From Prevotella sp. (GTDB lineage Bacteria > Bacteroidota > Bacteroidia > Bacteroidales > Bacteroidaceae): a DNA stretch of 49,633 nucleotides. The notes beneath the pieces are model-generated. The model saw nothing but the letters and a program-made list of their open reading frames with translations. It had not been told where the DNA came from and ran no database searches. How positions within the stretch are numbered: position 1 is the first letter of the stretch; every line of letters begins with the position of its first letter. The stretch spans positions 1-49,633 of the forward strand of contig JAFVGZ010000020.1 of the NCBI GenBank assembly GCA_017478025.1, read 5' to 3'. Positions 12,129-49,497 of the stretch are shown in pieces. A program made the translations under genes and the position numbers.

Positions 12129-12220
12129 TCTCCCCCCTTGGGGAAGCTGGAGGGGGCTTCTCCCCTCAGGGGGAGCTGGAGGGGGCTTCTCCCCTTAGGG
12201 GGAGCTGGTGGGGGCTTCTA
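12129..12220. repeat. G/C-rich tandem repeat, about three 29-bp units
   Basis: Copies begin at GCTGG 12146, 12175 and 12204, with a partial unit before them. The unit alternates a CTCCCC tract and an AGGGGGAG tract, so each can fold back. The array runs up to the stop codon of the symporter gene at 12218-12220. Confidence 0.75.
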
Positions 12221-13419: not shown

Positions 13420-14229
13420 ATGAGTCTAAAAATTGTGGTACTGGCAAAACAGGTACCCGACACGCACAACGTGGGTCCGGATGCGATGACAGCCGAGGGA
13501 ACGATAAACCGTTCCGCGTTGCCCGCCATCTTTAATCCCGATGACCTGAACGCCCTGGAGCAGGCACTAATCCTGAAAGACAAGTTCCCCGGCTCCACCA
13601 TTACCGTCCTCACTATGGGACTTCCAAAGTCAGCAGACATCATCCGAGAGTCACTCTATCGCGGTGCCGACTGCGGCTATGTCGTAACAGACCGTTGCCT
13701 CGGAGGTGCCGACACGCTGGCTACGAGCTACACCCTGTCGCAAGCCATACGCAAGATTGGCGACTATGACATCATCCTCGGTGGCCGTCAGGCTATCGAT
13801 GGCGATACGGCACAGGTGGGACCTCAGATAGCTGAGAAGTTGGGATTGACGCAGGTGACCTACGCAGAGGAAATCCTGTCACTTGACCCAGAGGCCAAGA
13901 AGGTTGTCATCAAGCGCCACATAGATGGCGGCGTAGAGACCGTGGAGGCTCCATTGCCCTTGGTGGTGACGGTCAACGGCTCTGCCGCTCCGTGCCGCCC
14001 CGCTAATGCCAAGCGTATCATGGCCAACAAGAAGGCTGAGATTGCGGAGTGGAATGCGCAGGATATCAACTGTGATATGCAGCAGGTAGGCAAGACCGGT
14101 TCGCCCACAAACGTGAAGAAAGTGGAGAATATCGTGTTCAAGGCTAAAGAGAGCCGCACCATGAGTGGCTCTGACGAAGAGATAAACAGCCTGATGCAGG
14201 AACTTATTAAAGAAAAGATAATAGGCTAA
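13420..14229 (+). CDS. etfB: Electron transfer flavoprotein, beta subunit
   Basis: A 269-residue EtfB. The N-terminal LKIVVLAKQVPDT, the NPDDLNALEQAL segment and the GGRQAIDGDTAQVGPQIAE stretch (about 121-139) are typical of the family. EtfB pairs with EtfA to form the FAD/AMP-binding heterodimer that accepts electrons from acyl-CoA dehydrogenases or bifurcates them. It heads an operon with etfA and an acyl-CoA dehydrogenase, driven by the promoter at 13312 and carrying a leader hairpin. The spacer to etfA contains an unusual 3 x 16-bp tandem repeat. Confidence 0.95.
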   Translation: MSLKIVVLAKQVPDTHNVGPDAMTAEGTINRSALPAIFNPDDLNALEQALILKDKFPGSTITVLTMGLPKSADIIRESLYRGADCGYVVTDRCLGGADTLATSYTLSQAIRKIGDYDIILGGRQAIDGDTAQVGPQIAEKLGLTQVTYAEEILSLDPEAKKVVIKRHIDGGVETVEAPLPLVVTVNGSAAPCRPANAKRIMANKKAEIAEWNAQDINCDMQQVGKTGSPTNVKKVENIVFKAKESRTMSGSDEEINSLMQELIKEKIIG

Positions 14230-14240
14230 AGAGTAGAAAT

Positions 14241-14368
14241 CAGTAGTTAAGTAGTCAGGCAGTTGAGACATTACTGACTGAGTATTGAGAACATACGTAT
14301 AAGGCATCTTGTATCGTCTTAACTTCTGAACTCCTTAACTTCTAAACTCCTTAACTTCTAAACTCCTA
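14241..14368. repeat. etfB-etfA spacer: imperfect inverted repeat plus 3 x 16-bp tandem repeat
   Basis: CAGTAGTTAAG (14241-14251) pairs with CTTAACTTCTG (14318-14328) with one mismatch. AACTTCTAAACTCCTT-type 16-mers follow at 14321-14336, 14337-14352 and 14353-14368, ending just before the etfA ribosome site (AAGGA). AGTCAG/CTGACT (14253-14258 and 14274-14279) can also pair. The motif resembles the arms around the four-helix-bundle gene downstream. Confidence 0.65.
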
Positions 14369-14375
14369 AGGAATA

Positions 14376-15416
14376 ATGAATAATGTATTTGTATATTGTG
14401 AGATAGAGGGTACAAAGGTAAAGGACGTTGCCCTCGAACTTCTCACCAAAGGACGCAAGTTAGCCAATACTCTTGGCGTAGAATTGGAATGTATCATAGC
14501 CGGTTCCGGGCTTGACGGCGTGGAGCAGCAGGTAATAAAATATGGTGTTGACAAGGTGCACATCTTTGATGCCGAGGGTCTGTTCCCCTATACATCAAAT
14601 CCTCATACGGCACTCGTGGTAAATCTGTTCAAGGAAGAGAAACCACAGATTTGTCTTCTGGGTGCTACCGTTATAGGCCGTGACCTGGGACCGCGCGTAT
14701 CTTCAGCACTCTTCAGCGGACTTACTGCTGACTGTACGGAGTTGGAGATTGATGACTTTGACATGAAGGTAAAGGATGCTTCCGGCGAACTCGTCACAAA
14801 GCATTACGAGCAGCAGCTCATGCAGATACGTCCTGCCTTCGGCGGCAATATTGTTGCTACCATCGTCAATCCCGAGCATCGCCCACAGATGGCAACGGTT
14901 CGTGAGGGCGTGATGAAGAAAGAAGTGCTGGACGAGAACTATAAGGCAGAGGTCATACGTCATGACGTGGCAAAGTATGTGCCTGAGACAGAGTATGTCG
15001 TAAAGGTGCTTGACCGCCACGTGGAGCAGGCAAAGCACAACCTGAAAGGCTCGCCAATCGTCGTAGCCGGAGGTTACGGAGTGGGAAGCAAGGAAGGCTT
15101 TGACAAACTCTATGAGCTGGCAAAGGAGCTGCATGCAGAGGTAGGCGCCAGCCGCGCCGCCGTGGATGCAGGATGGATAGAGTCAGACAGACAGATAGGA
15201 CAGACTGGTATCACGGTACATCCGAAGGTGTATATCGCCTGCGGTATCTCCGGTCAGATACAGCATATCGCCGGTATGCAGGACTCTGGCATCATCATTT
15301 CCATCAATAGTGACCCAGATGCACCTATCAATACTATCGCCGACTACGTGATTAACGGAACTGTGGAAGACGTGGTTCCTAAGATGATAAAGTATTACAA
15401 ACAGAACAATAAATAA
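14376..15416 (+). CDS. etfA: Electron transfer flavoprotein, alpha subunit
   Basis: A 346-residue EtfA. The C-terminal FAD domain is clear: GGYGVGSKEGF (about 231-241), a GQTGITVHPKVYIACGISG stretch (about 272-290), QHIAGM and the INSDPDAPI motif (about 308-316). It forms the FAD-carrying half of the ETF heterodimer with EtfB. The start at 14376 follows AAGGA at a normal distance. Its stop is followed within 15 nt by the left arm of the inverted repeat that encloses the four-helix-bundle gene. Confidence 0.95.
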   Translation: MNNVFVYCEIEGTKVKDVALELLTKGRKLANTLGVELECIIAGSGLDGVEQQVIKYGVDKVHIFDAEGLFPYTSNPHTALVVNLFKEEKPQICLLGATVIGRDLGPRVSSALFSGLTADCTELEIDDFDMKVKDASGELVTKHYEQQLMQIRPAFGGNIVATIVNPEHRPQMATVREGVMKKEVLDENYKAEVIRHDVAKYVPETEYVVKVLDRHVEQAKHNLKGSPIVVAGGYGVGSKEGFDKLYELAKELHAEVGASRAAVDAGWIESDRQIGQTGITVHPKVYIACGISGQIQHIAGMQDSGIIISINSDPDAPINTIADYVINGTVEDVVPKMIKYYKQNNK

Positions 15417-15430
15417 AAAAGGAGTTAAAG

Positions 15431-15885
15431 GGAGTTAGAGGGAGATAGAAGTAGATAGAAGACATTAGGAATTAGCATGACACGTAATTTTGAAAACATA
15501 ATAGCATGGCAGAAAGCCCATGGCTTTGTTCTTGCAGTTTACAAAGTAACGAAAGACTTTCCTGAAGATGAAAATTTTGGATTGAAATCACAGTTCAGAC
15601 GTGCTGCCGTATCCATAGCCGCAAACATAGCAGAGGGATACAAAAAACTGAGCAAAGCTGACAAACTGCGTTTCTTTAATATATCACAGGGCAGTTTAGA
15701 GGAGTGTAGATACTATATTATCTTATCTAAAGACCTTGAGTATATCGACGAACAAACATTTAATCTATTGTCAGAAAAGAATTCTGATGCCAGTTATATG
15801 TTAAACTCGTACATAAAAGGCGTGTTGAATAACTCTGGAGTACAAGACTAATGTCCTCTATCTCCTTCTATCTTCTTCTAACTCC
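15431..15885. mobile_element. IVS-like element: inverted repeat enclosing a four-helix-bundle gene
   Basis: The arms 15431-15468 and 15848-15885 match as reverse complements at 34 of 38 positions. In RNA two of the four mismatches become G-U pairs, giving a near-continuous 38-bp stem that loops out the gene at 15477-15851. The weaker match continues a further 10 bp outward (15421-15430). This arrangement, a stem with an S23 gene in the loop, is that of intervening sequences in 23S rRNA genes. Here it sits between etfA and an acyl-CoA dehydrogenase gene. The mobile-element label is inference. Confidence 0.6.
15477..15851 (+). CDS. Four-helix-bundle protein (S23 / 23S rRNA-IVS family)
   Basis: A 124-residue protein of the four-helix-bundle family: IIAWQKAH (about 8-15), FGLKSQFRRAAVSIAANIAEG (about 36-56, the diagnostic helix-turn-helix region) and a GSLEECRYYI helix near 79-88. 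Family members are encoded in the loops of intervening sequences in 23S rRNA, and relatives (Avd) assist diversity-generating retroelements. No reverse transcriptase or rRNA is near. The gene is enclosed by a 38-bp inverted repeat whose right arm overlaps its stop codon. It splits the etf-acyl-CoA dehydrogenase operon. Its function is unknown; it may bind the RNA stem. Confidence 0.85.
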   Translation: MTRNFENIIAWQKAHGFVLAVYKVTKDFPEDENFGLKSQFRRAAVSIAANIAEGYKKLSKADKLRFFNISQGSLEECRYYIILSKDLEYIDEQTFNLLSEKNSDASYMLNSYIKGVLNNSGVQD

Positions 15886-15906
15886 TTCTAACTACATTAA
15901 AAAACT

Positions 15907-17694
15907 ATGGCAAATTTCTATATTGACAACCCCGAGATAAAATATCACTTGAGCCATCCTTTGCTCAAGCATATAGTAGATATGAAGGAGCGCAACTATG
16001 CCGATGCCGGCAAGTATGACTATGCTCCGAGTGATTTTGAAGATGCCCTTGACAGTTACGAGCGCGTGCTGGAGCTGGCCGGTGACGTGTGCGCCAACAT
16101 TATAGCGCCTAATGCAGAGAGCGTTGATATGGAGGGACCGCGTTGTGAGAACGGTCGCATGATATATGCCTCCAAGACCAATGAGAACCTCGACGCTACG
16201 CGCAAGGCTGGCCTGCATGGTGTCACTATGCCACGCAGATACGGCGGTCTGAACTTCCCTATGGCTGTCTATTCCGCTGTCAACGAGATGGTGGCTGCGG
16301 GCGATACCGGCTTTGAGAATATCTGGTCGCTGCAGGATTGTATAGAGACGCTTTATGAGTTTGGTGACGAAGACCAGCGCAAGCGTTTCGTGCCGCGTGT
16401 CTGCGAGGGCGAGACGATGTCTATGGACCTCACGGAGCCTGATGCCGGCTCTGATCTGCAGTCAGTCATGCTCAAGGCAACCTTTGACGAAGAGAATAAC
16501 TGCTGGAGACTGAACGGCTGTAAGCGCTTCATCACCAACGGCGACTCTGACATACACCTCGTTCTGGCACGCTCGGAAGAGGGAACACGTGACGGTCGCG
16601 GACTCTCTATGTTCATCTATGACAAGCGTGACGGAGGCGTTGACGTGCGTCGCATAGAGAATAAGCTCGGCATTCACGGTTCACCAACCTGCGAGCTCGT
16701 ATATAAGAATGCAAAGGCTGAGCTGTGCGGCTCACGCAAGTTGGGTCTCATAAAGTACGTCATGGGGCTGATGAATGGTGCGCGTCTGGGCATCGCAGGT
16801 CAGTCAACGGGTGTGTCGCAGATGGCATACAACGAAGCGCTGGCCTATGCCAAGGACCGCAAGCAGTTCGGCAAGGCTATCATCAATTTCCCGGCTGTCT
16901 ATGACATGCTCTCGACCATGAAGGCGAAGCTGGATGCAGGTCGTGCACTCTATTACGCCACATCACGTTTCGTTGACGTCTATAAGATACTTGAGGACAT
17001 AGAGCGTGAGCGCAAGGAAGCTGGCGAGAAGCTGACAGCCGAAGAGCGTGCAGAGTGCAAGGCCTTCTCACGTTTGGCTGATGCTTTCACACCTATCGCC
17101 AAGGGTATGACCTCTGAGTATGCCAACCAGAATACCTACGATGGCATTCAGGTACACGGCGGCTCAGGCTTCATGCTTGAATATGCCTGCCAGCGCCTGT
17201 ATCGCGATGCACGTATCCTCACTATCTATGAGGGTACGACACAGCTGCAGACCGTAGCAGCAGGACGCTATATCACCAACGGCTTCTATGGACAGGTGAT
17301 AGCAGACCTTCTGGAGAAAGGCGAGCAGGGCATGTCCCTCGCTCTTGCCACATCTTACTCTGCCGCTGAAGAAGTGCCGGCAGAGTGGTGTGCACCGGAG
17401 TTCGCTGCCCTCAAGGAGCGCATCGCAAAGGCTGCAGAGAAATACAACGCAGCCGTGGAATACACCAACGAGCAGAAGGACGACGAGTTCAAGGACCTCG
17501 TGATACGTCACCTCTACGAGATGGCATCAGATCTCATCATGGCTCTCTTGCTCATCGGAGATGCCAGCCGTTGTCCTGAACTCTTTGCTAAGTCCGCAAA
17601 GGTCTATACACGCTACGCCGCCGCAGAGATAGAGAAGCACTATGACTTCATCCTCTCAGCAAAGAGCGAAGACCTGGAAGATTATCGTAAATAA
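15907..17694 (+). CDS. Acyl-CoA dehydrogenase family flavoprotein, long form
   Basis: A 595-residue FAD enzyme that oxidises acyl-CoA thioesters and passes electrons to ETF. Visible are DLTEPDAGSDLQ (about 178-189), the FAD-pyrophosphate region, RKQFGKAIINFPAV, the QVHGGSGFMLEYACQRLYRD stretch and YEGTTQLQ, whose E442 is at the usual position of the catalytic base. It is longer than classic 380-residue members, with an inserted KILEDIERERKEAGEK segment and an extra C-terminal helical region of about 130 residues as in VLCAD-type enzymes. Co-location with etfBA identifies its electron acceptor. Its stop codon lies inside a 42-bp direct repeat. Confidence 0.9.
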   Translation: MANFYIDNPEIKYHLSHPLLKHIVDMKERNYADAGKYDYAPSDFEDALDSYERVLELAGDVCANIIAPNAESVDMEGPRCENGRMIYASKTNENLDATRKAGLHGVTMPRRYGGLNFPMAVYSAVNEMVAAGDTGFENIWSLQDCIETLYEFGDEDQRKRFVPRVCEGETMSMDLTEPDAGSDLQSVMLKATFDEENNCWRLNGCKRFITNGDSDIHLVLARSEEGTRDGRGLSMFIYDKRDGGVDVRRIENKLGIHGSPTCELVYKNAKAELCGSRKLGLIKYVMGLMNGARLGIAGQSTGVSQMAYNEALAYAKDRKQFGKAIINFPAVYDMLSTMKAKLDAGRALYYATSRFVDVYKILEDIERERKEAGEKLTAEERAECKAFSRLADAFTPIAKGMTSEYANQNTYDGIQVHGGSGFMLEYACQRLYRDARILTIYEGTTQLQTVAAGRYITNGFYGQVIADLLEKGEQGMSLALATSYSAAEEVPAEWCAPEFAALKERIAKAAEKYNAAVEYTNEQKDDEFKDLVIRHLYEMASDLIMALLLIGDASRCPELFAKSAKVYTRYAAAEIEKHYDFILSAKSEDLEDYRK

Positions 17695-22392: not shown

Positions 22393-23156
22393 GCATTTTT
22401 TTTTGAAACGCAGGGCCTGCTACTCTTTTTTATGTGTAAGATGCAGTAATTAATTGATTTTTATTATTCTGTAACAGTCCCACAAGTGCCCATTATCTTG
22501 AGGATTATGCATAATGCACTCAATTTAATTCATAATTCATAATGCTTAATTTGTGTAACACAAGTGTCCAACATCTGGAGGATTATGCATTATTTGGTTT
22601 TCATGATTATAAAAATTGACCGTAAGGCAAAAAAATGAGGATGCAAAAGCTAATCGGAATAGGGCGAAAATCAAAATCCCCCGATTTTACAAATTGTCAC
22701 TTTTTTAGCCAAAAAATGAACAAATTGTTATTTTGACTTTTACCACAAAAAAATGAAATCTAGAGCGGCGCATGTTGAAGAAAACGGAAATATAGAACAG
22801 GAAATTAACAATTCGGAGACCGAAAATCTATTTTTGGGGTATGGAAGTAGGTCAATTAGGGTGTCCGCGATGGTCAGGAAGACCCTTGTCGCAGGTCTAT
22901 TAGGGGGTAATAGTAGGTCTTTTACCCCAAAATTTGTGGCCTGTTTTTCGGTTTAGTTGTTCTGTTTTGATGGGTAAACCATCAAACACTCTGATGTTCA
23001 GCGTGTTAGCTATTCGTGCTCTCTCGTGCGATATTTGCGAGCTCGGGAACTTTTGCTCAGAAATTTGCCCAAATTTTGAAGGTTGAAAAATCGCGATTGT
23101 TACTTTTTTAACTAAAAAATGAACAAATTGTAAAATTGGGTTTGTTGCAAAAAACG
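22393..23156. other. Gene-free stretch with several decayed repeat families
   Basis: No convincing gene is present; the 67-codon frame at 22753-22956 has no family resemblance. Direct repeats of CACAAGTG...GAGGATTATGCAT lie at about 22480-22512 and 22559-22590. A 36-bp repeat occurs at about 22694-22729 and 23097-23132 with three mismatches. A modular AGGTCTATTAGGG series lies at 22847-22930. Confidence 0.5.
22694..23132. repeat. 36-bp direct repeats flanking about 370 bp
   Basis: The two copies read ATTGTCACTTTTTTAGCC... and ATTGTTACTTTTTTAACT..., both continuing into AAAAAATGAACAAATTGT, with 33 of 36 positions equal. The DNA between them has no identifiable gene. Confidence 0.55.
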
Positions 23157-25440: not shown

Positions 25441-25450
25441 GTTGGATGAG

Positions 25451-25590
25451 GGATGATGGATGAAGCCCTCACTTGCTCCCCAGAGGGATGATGGATGAAG
25501 TCCTCACTTGCTCCCCAGAGGGATGATGGATGAAGCCCTCACTTGCTCCCCAGAGGGATGATGGATGAAGCCCTCACTTGCTCCCCAGAG
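25451..25590. repeat. Four tandem 35-bp repeats
   Basis: The units 25451-25485, 25486-25520, 25521-25555 and 25556-25590 start GGATGATGGATGAAG and end CTCCCCAGAG. Only one base (C/T in unit 2) differs. A degraded further unit follows to about 25616. The array lies 35 bp beyond the stop of the porin gene. Confidence 0.92.
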
Positions 25591-25625
25591 GGGGAGGGAC
25601 GATGGGTGAGGGTAGGGCAGAGTCT

Positions 25626-37195: not shown

Positions 37196-37202
37196 CGCCG
37201 AG

Positions 37203-37398
37203 ATCGTACTGGTTCGATAGGGATACTCATCAAATAAATCGAAAACCCCAGGACATGTCTTCCTTGCCAATGGCGGGCCACAAATAAGTCGTTCTGACCA
37301 AGCTATATGCCGGTGGATTACAGCAGCGGGAAGCCCCTGAAACATTTTCTTAAAGGAGTTTTCATCACATCATCAGTGCGGTCTCATTTTTTTTGTGC
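37203..37398 (+). ncRNA. Candidate small non-coding RNA
   Basis: The transcript from the box at 37187 would cross about 190 nt without a credible ORF. Local stems are GGTTCGAT with ATCG/AACC (37212-37219 and 37239-37248, two bulged A's), the palindrome GACATGTC (37253-37260) and CAG-C-GGG/CCC-CTG near 37323-37340. A T-run at 37388-37395 could end it. I cannot match it to a known family; a 6S or Bacteroidales-type RNA is possible. Confidence 0.4.
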
Positions 37399-44013: not shown

Positions 44014-44201
44014 CGCCCTGAAAGGGCAAAAGCTTATAGCCCAGGGCAACGCCCTGGGTTTTTATGTGGTGTGTAATCACGCCCTGTAAGGGCAAAAGAA
44101 GTTCATTCATGTCGTTCTGCTGCCCTTACAGGGCGTGGTTACTATTTGCTTTCATACCCAGGGCGCTGCCCTGGGCTATATGCTTTTGCCCTTTCAGGGC
44201 G
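44014..44201. repeat. REP-like cluster: 80-bp inverted arms built of small palindromes
   Basis: The arm 44014-44093 and the reverse complement of 44120-44201 align over about 80 bp with scattered mismatches. Both contain GCCCTGAAAGGGC, the AGCCCAGGGC...GCCCTGGG hairpin and GCCCTGTAAGGGC. About 26 nt separate the arms. No Y1-type transposase is nearby. The cluster lies between convergent genes and could also act as a terminator. Confidence 0.85.
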
Positions 44202-48503: not shown

Positions 48504-48591
48504 CAAAAAAAATGCCGAACCACCAAAAAAACACATAAAACTCCACATCATTTGCGACGTCTTCGCCCTCCAAAAACACGAAAGTACCATG

Positions 48592-48766
48592 TTCAATGGT
48601 CAATGCTCAATGTTCAATGTTCAATGTTCAATGTTCAATCCTCAATGGTCAATCCTCAATGGTCAATGTTCAATGTTCAATCCTCAATGTTCAATCCTCA
48701 ATGGTCAATCCTCAATGTTCAATGCTCAATGTTCAATGTTCAATGGTCAATGGTCAATGGTCAATT
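48592..48766. repeat. Heptamer minisatellite, 25 units of nTCAATn
   Basis: Twenty-five consecutive 7-mers share TCAAT. Only the two bases between successive TCAAT cores vary, and these take almost exclusively the forms GG, GC, GT and CC. Because 21 bp is three units, all frames stay open and encode repeats such as FNVQCSM; I regard these as non-coding by-products. Confidence 0.95.
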
Positions 48767-49335: not shown

Positions 49336-49497
49336 GGGGGAAAAAAGGGAAAAAGGGGAAATGGGGACTTTAAGCTATTTGGAAGTAGTGGAGTGTATAT
49401 AAAATAAATAAATTTATTCGCGCGTACATTATTATAAAATAGAAAAACTATCTAAACCCTTATTTTCCCCTTTTCCCCTTTTTCCCTTTTTTCCCCC
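49336..49497. repeat. 162-bp hairpin element with G/A-tract and C/T-tract arms
   Basis: The arms 49336-49361 and 49472-49497 are perfect 26-bp reverse complements, composed only of G and A runs on one side and C and T runs on the other. With one mismatch the pairing extends to 31 bp (49336-49366 and 49467-49497). The 100-nt centre is A/T-rich with TATATAAAATAAATAAATTTATT. The geometry matches the element at 5504-5648 although the arm sequences are unrelated. Confidence 0.85.

Follow-up and report, generated by a model that had tools for sequence, protein, structure and literature searches.

Among the intervening sequences (IVSs) of rRNA genes are forms that lack an open reading frame (ORF). 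The accessible part of one account places IVSs in both 16S and 23S rRNA genes, and describes the role of the rRNA IVSs and of S23 as still unknown (PMC4990558). S23 genes have already been annotated between protein genes as well: in the available portion of a report on Flavobacterium columnare, a four helix bundle protein is encoded between guanylate kinase and nicotinic acid mononucleotide adenylyltransferase (PMC5524665). The element described here is an S23 gene positioned between etfA and an acyl-CoA dehydrogenase gene (acd) of a Prevotella genome, within a stretch of 49,633 nucleotides that was analysed as a whole and is called the window. The run of genes to which it belongs has the following parts.

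13420..14229, + strand, etfB, first gene of the run (PF01012)
14230..14375, + strand, etfB-etfA spacer, S23-free and hairpin-like, with 16-nt CTTAACTTCTAAACTC repeats on its 3' side and a GAC tip (by eye)
14376..15416, + strand, etfA (electron transfer flavoprotein alpha), the upstream host gene (PF00766/PF01012)
15418..15468, + strand, 5' stem arm, a tandem decamer (R)GGAG(A/T)TAGA followed by the apical motif GACATTAG
15477..15851, + strand, S23 / four-helix-bundle gene, 124 aa (PF05635, TIGR02436)
15848..15898, + strand, 3' stem arm, CTAATGTCC plus pyrimidine-rich decamer repeats
15907..17694, + strand, acyl-CoA dehydrogenase (acd), the downstream host gene (PF12186, PF00441, PF02770, PF02771)

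The inverted arms, at 15418-15468 and 15848-15898, are 51 nt long, 84% complementary, and 379 nt apart. In the RNA fold of 15400-15912, the centroid consists of 43 arm pairs (5+23+7+8, with three 1-nt interruptions), all of which are standard pairs; the minimum free energy of -139 kcal/mol corresponds to a z-score of -6.6, and none of 100 shuffles is as good. An earlier reading, made from the sequence only, had reported 38-bp arms with 34 matches and two G-U pairs, and 36 of those 38 positions pair in this fold; its placement of an S23 gene between etfA and the acyl-CoA dehydrogenase gene, enclosed by the arms, also holds in coordinates and counts. The S23 start codon is located 8 nt inside the stem tip, and the S23 stop codon falls within the 3' arm. 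The hairpin in the etfB-etfA spacer is weak by the same measures (arm score 22, threshold 26; fold z -1.8). The window S23 protein scores 130.2 bits with PF05635 (cut-off 33.8) and 123.8 bits with TIGR02436 (cut-off 24), and it matches, by sequence only, the solved S23 structures 2gsc (E 2e-15) and 2rld (E 6e-7). As a DGR Avd it falls below both models used, with 34.3 against a cut-off of 80 for DivGenRetAVD and 32.7 against 40 for bAvd. Its closest named relatives belong to Prevotella and other Bacteroidales, many of them of ruminant guts. A search of the window for rRNA found none, and the etfA-acd element is flanked by protein genes rather than placed in a 16S or 23S gene. (A different RNA, the Bacteroidales-1 RNA, a suggested 6S RNA, is matched at 37202-37389 of the window with 98 bits.) As argued below, the etfA-acd S23 element is probably a mobile "looped-out" gene cassette, the mRNA counterpart of the rRNA IVS.

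The source genome (2.93 Mb, 43 contigs) contains two further single-domain S23 genes (L002 and L003), whose arms differ in sequence. The S23 gene at kdgK-eda has arms of 34 nt that are 94% complementary and of the AATTTTGAATTTTG type, and that at pta-ackA has arms of 33 nt that are 100% complementary and of the AAGTGAAGAGTGAA type; both genes lie in sense with their neighbors. (We take these neighbors to be kdgK, eda, pta, and ackA from recognition of their translations; the Pfam scan covered the etf and dehydrogenase genes.) Thus, the three single-domain S23 genes of this genome have three unrelated arm sequences and one layout. The genome also encodes two S23 fusion proteins, L004 and L005, which are long and give weaker matches, and which are both within the genus count of 120 given below; L004 has CCGGA repeats on both sides (score 35) and is counted with arms, and L005 (score 22) is counted without. 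As a separate observation, L005:1018-1761 (- strand) combines in one protein an S23-like stretch of 28 bits, which is below the cut-off, with a topoisomerase-type zinc ribbon (PF01396, 36.6 bits).

Of the genomes searched, PF05635 is present in 104 of 120 for the genus, in 111 of 149 for the order, and in 116 of 148 for the phylum. The genus sample, which is made up of 29 returned loci and 80 fetched stretches covering the listed matches to about E 2e-28, minus three near contig ends, leaves out the weaker tail of the listed PF05635 matches; its 114 loci yield 121 S23 ORFs at 120 distinct places, L058 and L131 holding one place that is counted once. Arms were scored as matched when the upstream and downstream flanks form inverted repeats with a score of at least 26. 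A search for further S23 genes with matching arms, which the earlier reading had proposed, is answered by 106 of the 120 genus genes at this threshold, compared with 6.7% of 3000 mispaired flanks and 15 of 205 neighboring genes of the same loci. Arms are found at 27 of 29 order-wide loci (5% of mispaired flanks) and at 17 of 30 phylum-wide loci (3.7%), which leaves 14 of the 120 genus genes and 13 of the 30 phylum-wide ones without arms at threshold; it should be noted that the order and phylum sets, like the site sets below, are the best 29-30 loci per search and therefore lean to strong matches. In loci from named genomes the figure is 76 of 79 (one more was dropped for a short flank), with a mispaired rate of 35% that arises because close relatives share arm types; eight of the 79 are elements of the genus set, and without them the figure is 68 of 71. 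In two loci, L039 and L084, S23 is interrupted by a stop, beyond which the reading was not extended. An Rfam search of 40 hand-picked S23 loci (34 of the genus, six of the order) found no rRNA. Judged from these comparisons, the arms and the S23 gene recur as one unit, in sense, in the spacers of many operons. In one genome (G117), a segment of 1,070 bp is present in two copies that are 99.5% identical, carry the same S23 gene, and lie about 18 kb apart (L079 and L080).

Occupancy was compared at three spacers, each represented by the 30 best loci of its search, source genome included, with class counts that are our own reading of the outputs and cargo families that were checked. At etfA-acd, S23 is present in three loci, DUF559 in two, PDDEXK_3 in one, and a gene-free hairpin (score at least 26) in three; the spacer is 19 nt or shorter in 13, and eight are of other kinds. 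The comparison of etf loci that had been suggested for this element thus finds it not to be fixed among the window's own locus and 29 relatives. At pta-ackA, seven loci have S23, three PDDEXK_3, two a hairpin only, 15 a spacer of at most 63 nt, and three something else. The corresponding counts at kdgK-eda are four with S23, two with a hairpin only, 21 with a spacer of at most 82 nt, and three others; the S23 gene of L218 at this site has an arm score of 23, below threshold. The S23 proteins of pta-ackA form four groups in the tree, three of them in one 10-tip clade and the fourth at its far side, which argues for at least two entries into this spacer. Those of kdgK-eda form three far-apart groups, and the kdgK-eda protein of L226 shares a clade with three pta-ackA proteins (support 0.96). 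The three relatives that are nearest in etfA among the 60 searched (G001, G008, and G021; 91-93% identical) have no S23 there. The window S23 is nearest in the tree to other etfA-acd copies, and so the window copy may be old at etfA-acd and have been lost in these three near relatives. Among the genomes compared, the cassette is seen to be present at given spacers in some and absent in others, with different S23 lineages in one spacer. The earlier view of an IVS-like unit in an mRNA spacer stands as far as paired arms, S23, and sporadic presence are concerned; the idea of one moved IVS gives way to a common class.

The 120 S23 genes of the genus are strongly biased in orientation: 101 read in the same direction as both neighbors (> S23 >), three are antisense to them (< S23 <), nine lie between convergent genes (> <), five lie between divergent genes (< >), and two have one neighbor missing, with gene calls that come from a crude greedy ORF choice. 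Because background gene pairs are themselves mostly co-directional (303 of 391), the telling figure is the 101 in sense versus the three in antisense, a bias that could perhaps reflect selection for expression and not a trace of movement. The median dN/dS of S23, 0.06 over 60 pairs, indicates strong purifying selection on the protein. Both this selection and the sense orientation suit an ordinary operon gene that sits between attenuator hairpins and has no mobility. This explanation is also favored by the neighbors of the 70 distinct S23 proteins encoded at the 80 best named loci, of which 21 lie beside etfA and acd and four more beside etfA alone, so that part of the family has possibly been inherited in place. 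It is opposed by presence and absence at three sites, by the separate S23 lineages in one spacer, and by the same unit at unrelated sites, and we hold it to be quite improbable; presence and absence disfavor it for the whole family, although it may apply to single old copies like that of the window.

The position of the stem bears on a second alternative. For the 27 etfA-acd elements that score at least 36, the median distance is 6 nt from stop codon to stem and 17 nt from stem to start codon; geometry was parsed for 45 elements over the three sites, with two 5'-side outliers of 195 and 617 nt. The corresponding distances for the window element are 6 nt from the etfA stop to the stem base and 13 nt from the stem base to the acd start. 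Spacers that are short and lack an insert have lengths of similar magnitude. The predicted stem base is thus seen to lie a few nucleotides past the upstream stop codon and just ahead of the next start codon. The earlier reading had understood the stem as an RNase III processing site that would split the etf message and set the level of etfBA versus acd, with S23 as a passenger. The long, near-perfect stem speaks for this, and the accessible parts of published reports describe cleavage by RNase III of rRNA IVS stems of such layout (PMC4990558) and Correia elements of Neisseria to which RNase III can bind, with cleavage or protection as the outcome (PMC2649163). However, tight S23-less operons are common at etfA-acd (13 of 30 loci), so uncoupling is not generally needed; the strong purifying selection on S23 is unlike that of a mere passenger; and the stem geometry restores spacing instead of disturbing it. 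Looping-out accounts no less well than uncoupling for a stem base placed so near to the stop of one gene and the start of the next. Processing as the main function of the element is in our judgment rather doubtful, and it and a looped-out cassette are not mutually exclusive.

The arms of different elements are built from different units, among them GGAGTTATAA, AGTTTAGAGTGG, GGTACGGG, AGGTGAG, and TAATGCA, and within an element they match. At etfA-acd (n=30), an element's own arms score a mean of 50.7 compared with 28.3 for swapped arms, and at pta-ackA (n=11) the values are 56.8 and 23.3; in both cases the difference is reached in none of 20,000 permutations, which ignore phylogeny. At the stem tip, the combinations GAC/GTC and GCC/GGC account for 62 of 66 scorable elements, four being discordant, in a count that examined 110 tips (44 undetermined) using text patterns chosen after the alignment had been seen; a narrower count was also made over 36 loci. 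By parsimony, the tip has changed at least five times on the 5' side and three on the 3' side. The sequence-only reading had regarded conservation of the arms as a pair, by compensating changes, as decisive, and such conservation is what is found, since own arms beat swapped arms at orthologous sites and the tip swap is coordinated in 62 of 66. Among 10 closely related orthologues aligned in register, the counts of covariation are level with those of shuffles and do not exceed them, and consequently the case rests on the wider comparison; in the same group, 86.5% of cells are paired, versus 41-53% if one arm is slid by 1 to 3 columns. (An RNAalifold analysis of covariation over 24 orthologues, which gave only nine arm pairs, was rejected because MAFFT had aligned the repeats of two arm classes in a shifted register.)

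Arm similarity was also compared across sites. For 47 pairs of elements from different genomes, with close S23 proteins and non-homologous flanks, the median arm similarity is 0.41; for 49 pairs from the same genome with distant S23 proteins it is 0.15 (Mann-Whitney p 9e-13, the pairs not being independent). These pairs were obtained through a six-frame flank comparison of elements scoring at least 30, with 5 of 98 dropped for short flanks. A first version of this test was dropped because its flank-homology filter was leaky and some pairs were the same site. When 700 nt on each side are considered, alignment is confined to the ORF and parts of the arms for L098/L055 and for L117/L131. By these comparisons, the arms track the S23 subfamily and not the host genome. 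This finding bears on whether pre-existing minisatellite hairpins have served as hot spots for S23 insertion, so that arms and gene would have separate histories. S23-free hairpins do occur in the same genome and the same spacers, as this explanation would have it; yet arm sequence follows S23 subfamily rather than genome (0.41 versus 0.15), and many loci at S23 sites have a short spacer without a hairpin. Such hot spots have, in our estimate, a small probability.

The arms of the window element are tandem copies of the 10-nt unit (R)GGAG(A/T)TAGA, which has six matches in the window versus 0.03 expected. By our grouping of the 30 matches listed, the decamer is dispersed at roughly 17 places of the genome, and only that of the window coincides, by coordinates, with a PF05635 match. 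The places include gene-free short-loop hairpins (L012, L018, L024, L027, L032, and L034); others resemble single arms. The S23-free hairpin L012, of 151 nt, has relatives that include its loop: L034 is 81% identical over 1-132 and L032 76% over 12-109. Twelve S23-free decamer places, hairpins and single arms together, were oriented: five lie between convergent genes, three are < <, two are > >, one is < >, and one has no called upstream gene. These places are not typical of operon spacers, and so such repeats also do something else. Dispersal at roughly 17 places, and the relatedness of L012 to L034 and L032 with loop included, are consistent with a DNA transposon or MITE-like element, whose arms would be terminal inverted repeats for a transposase acting in trans and whose RNA hairpin would be incidental; inverted-repeat ends and tandem repeats are joined in BrickBuilt of Porphyromonas gingivalis, according to the available part of its description (PMC4596501). 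In contrast to the fixed ends recognized by one enzyme, the arms vary widely between S23 subfamilies with pairing kept; the sense bias of 101:3 and the ending of the stem at stop and start codons also argue against this origin, which we consider unlikely.

Several other repeats are found in the window. Positions 22680-23140 hold a MITE-like stretch of 461 bp between two genes; its inverted ends, 44 nt long, match imperfectly (80%), and it contains no ORF of at least 70 aa. At 49336-49497, near the contig end, is a hairpin whose arms are tandem repeats (GGGAAAAA type, 39 nt, 90%), and at 44014-44201 are nested palindromes, 46 nt that are 96% complementary around a second, 28-nt hairpin. A minisatellite of 7/42-nt units (ATGTTCA) with 25 copies of the 7-nt unit occupies 48589-48765, and 25448-25592 contains 4.1 copies of a 35-nt tandem repeat with 98% matches.

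For the mobile looped-out cassette, the following series of events is envisaged. The S23 gene would be co-transcribed with etfBA-acd. The 5' arm, which has more G than C in 81 of 85 cases, is C-poor and would remain free of structure until transcription reaches the 3' arm, about 400 nt further on; the arms would then pair in the mRNA, holding the ~380-nt gene in a loop. With the arms paired and the gene looped out, the distance from the etfA stop to the acd start would be much like that in an empty operon, and because this spacing would be kept, insertion would be nearly neutral. S23 would be translated from the loop and probably binds the tip of its own stem, which would favor persistence or movement of the element. 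The stem is probably trimmed by RNase III, as are those of rRNA IVSs.

Other genes lie in similar hairpins. PDDEXK_3 genes have matched arms at 24 of 30 loci, compared with 4.9% of mispaired flanks, and 20 of the 30 have the arrangement > >. Of 16 small DUF559 proteins, 13 are encoded within matched arms (the other 14 of the 30 loci, with ORFs of more than 220 aa, were set aside), but 46% of mispaired flanks also reach threshold, since the DUF559 arms all share CCCCTCCC, and the match is therefore not element-specific. PDDEXK_3 genes are thus carried in hairpins like those of S23, and DUF559 genes less clearly so. (At 12129-12219 of the window are 29-nt repeats rich in GGGGGAG that, by eye, are like the CCCCTCCC arms around DUF559 genes.) Tentatively, and as something close to an even call, these elements may form a general class of intercistronic mobile cassettes, each with one small gene (S23 or PDDEXK_3/GxxExxY, perhaps DUF559) and self-matching arms composed largely of short tandem repeats, inserted in sense between the stop and start codons of an operon and folded out by an RNA stem; the rRNA IVSs would be its rRNA-resident branch.

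If most S23 genes of the phylum live in matched-arm mRNA cassettes, they would provide hundreds of natural replicates in which pairing, cutting, and the effect on flanking genes could be measured. They would also be insertions that, through RNA folding, keep their own damage small, and they would account for many of the "four helix bundle" and GxxExxY genes annotated inside unrelated operons. No earlier description of such a cassette was found in the open-access literature, preprints not being covered.

Comparison with known systems shows what is shared and what differs. In the S23 / four-helix-bundle protein family (2gsc, 2rld), the window protein is an S23 above both family cut-offs, and the enclosing arms are what is added. 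Like the rRNA IVS, the etfA-acd element has an S23 ORF in the loop of a stem formed by complementary flanks, and its presence is sporadic; the sizes are also comparable, 428 nt for the Coxiella IVS versus 481 nt for the etfA-acd element. In the accessible part of its description, the Coxiella IVS has tandem heptamers (GACAGAT) in its 5' part before the ORF, a likeness to the tandem repeats seen here; the IVSs lie in 16S/23S genes, whereas the cassettes lie in mRNA spacers between protein genes, and the Coxiella ORF is said to be under reductive evolution, whereas the S23 of the cassettes is under strong purifying selection (PMC4990558). The BrickBuilt MITE of P. gingivalis resembles the cassettes in that it is an intergenic element of Bacteroidales with tandem repeats and inverted-repeat ends, but it is built from one 23-nt unit in a tandem array, and the available text mentions no enclosed gene (PMC4596501). 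Unlike those of BrickBuilt, the repeats of the cassettes make up the two arms around a gene and vary from element to element; as for MITEs, the decamer arms are common to places within the source genome, but arms differ between S23 subfamilies. The Correia/NEMIS elements of Neisseria, as covered in the accessible parts of two reports, are likewise dispersed hairpins beside genes on whose RNA RNase III acts (PMC2649163, PMC2229807). These elements are 107 or 155 bp long, with 24-bp terminal repeats, and the portion available describes short ORFs fused to neighbors and mentions no separate loop gene (PMC2229807).
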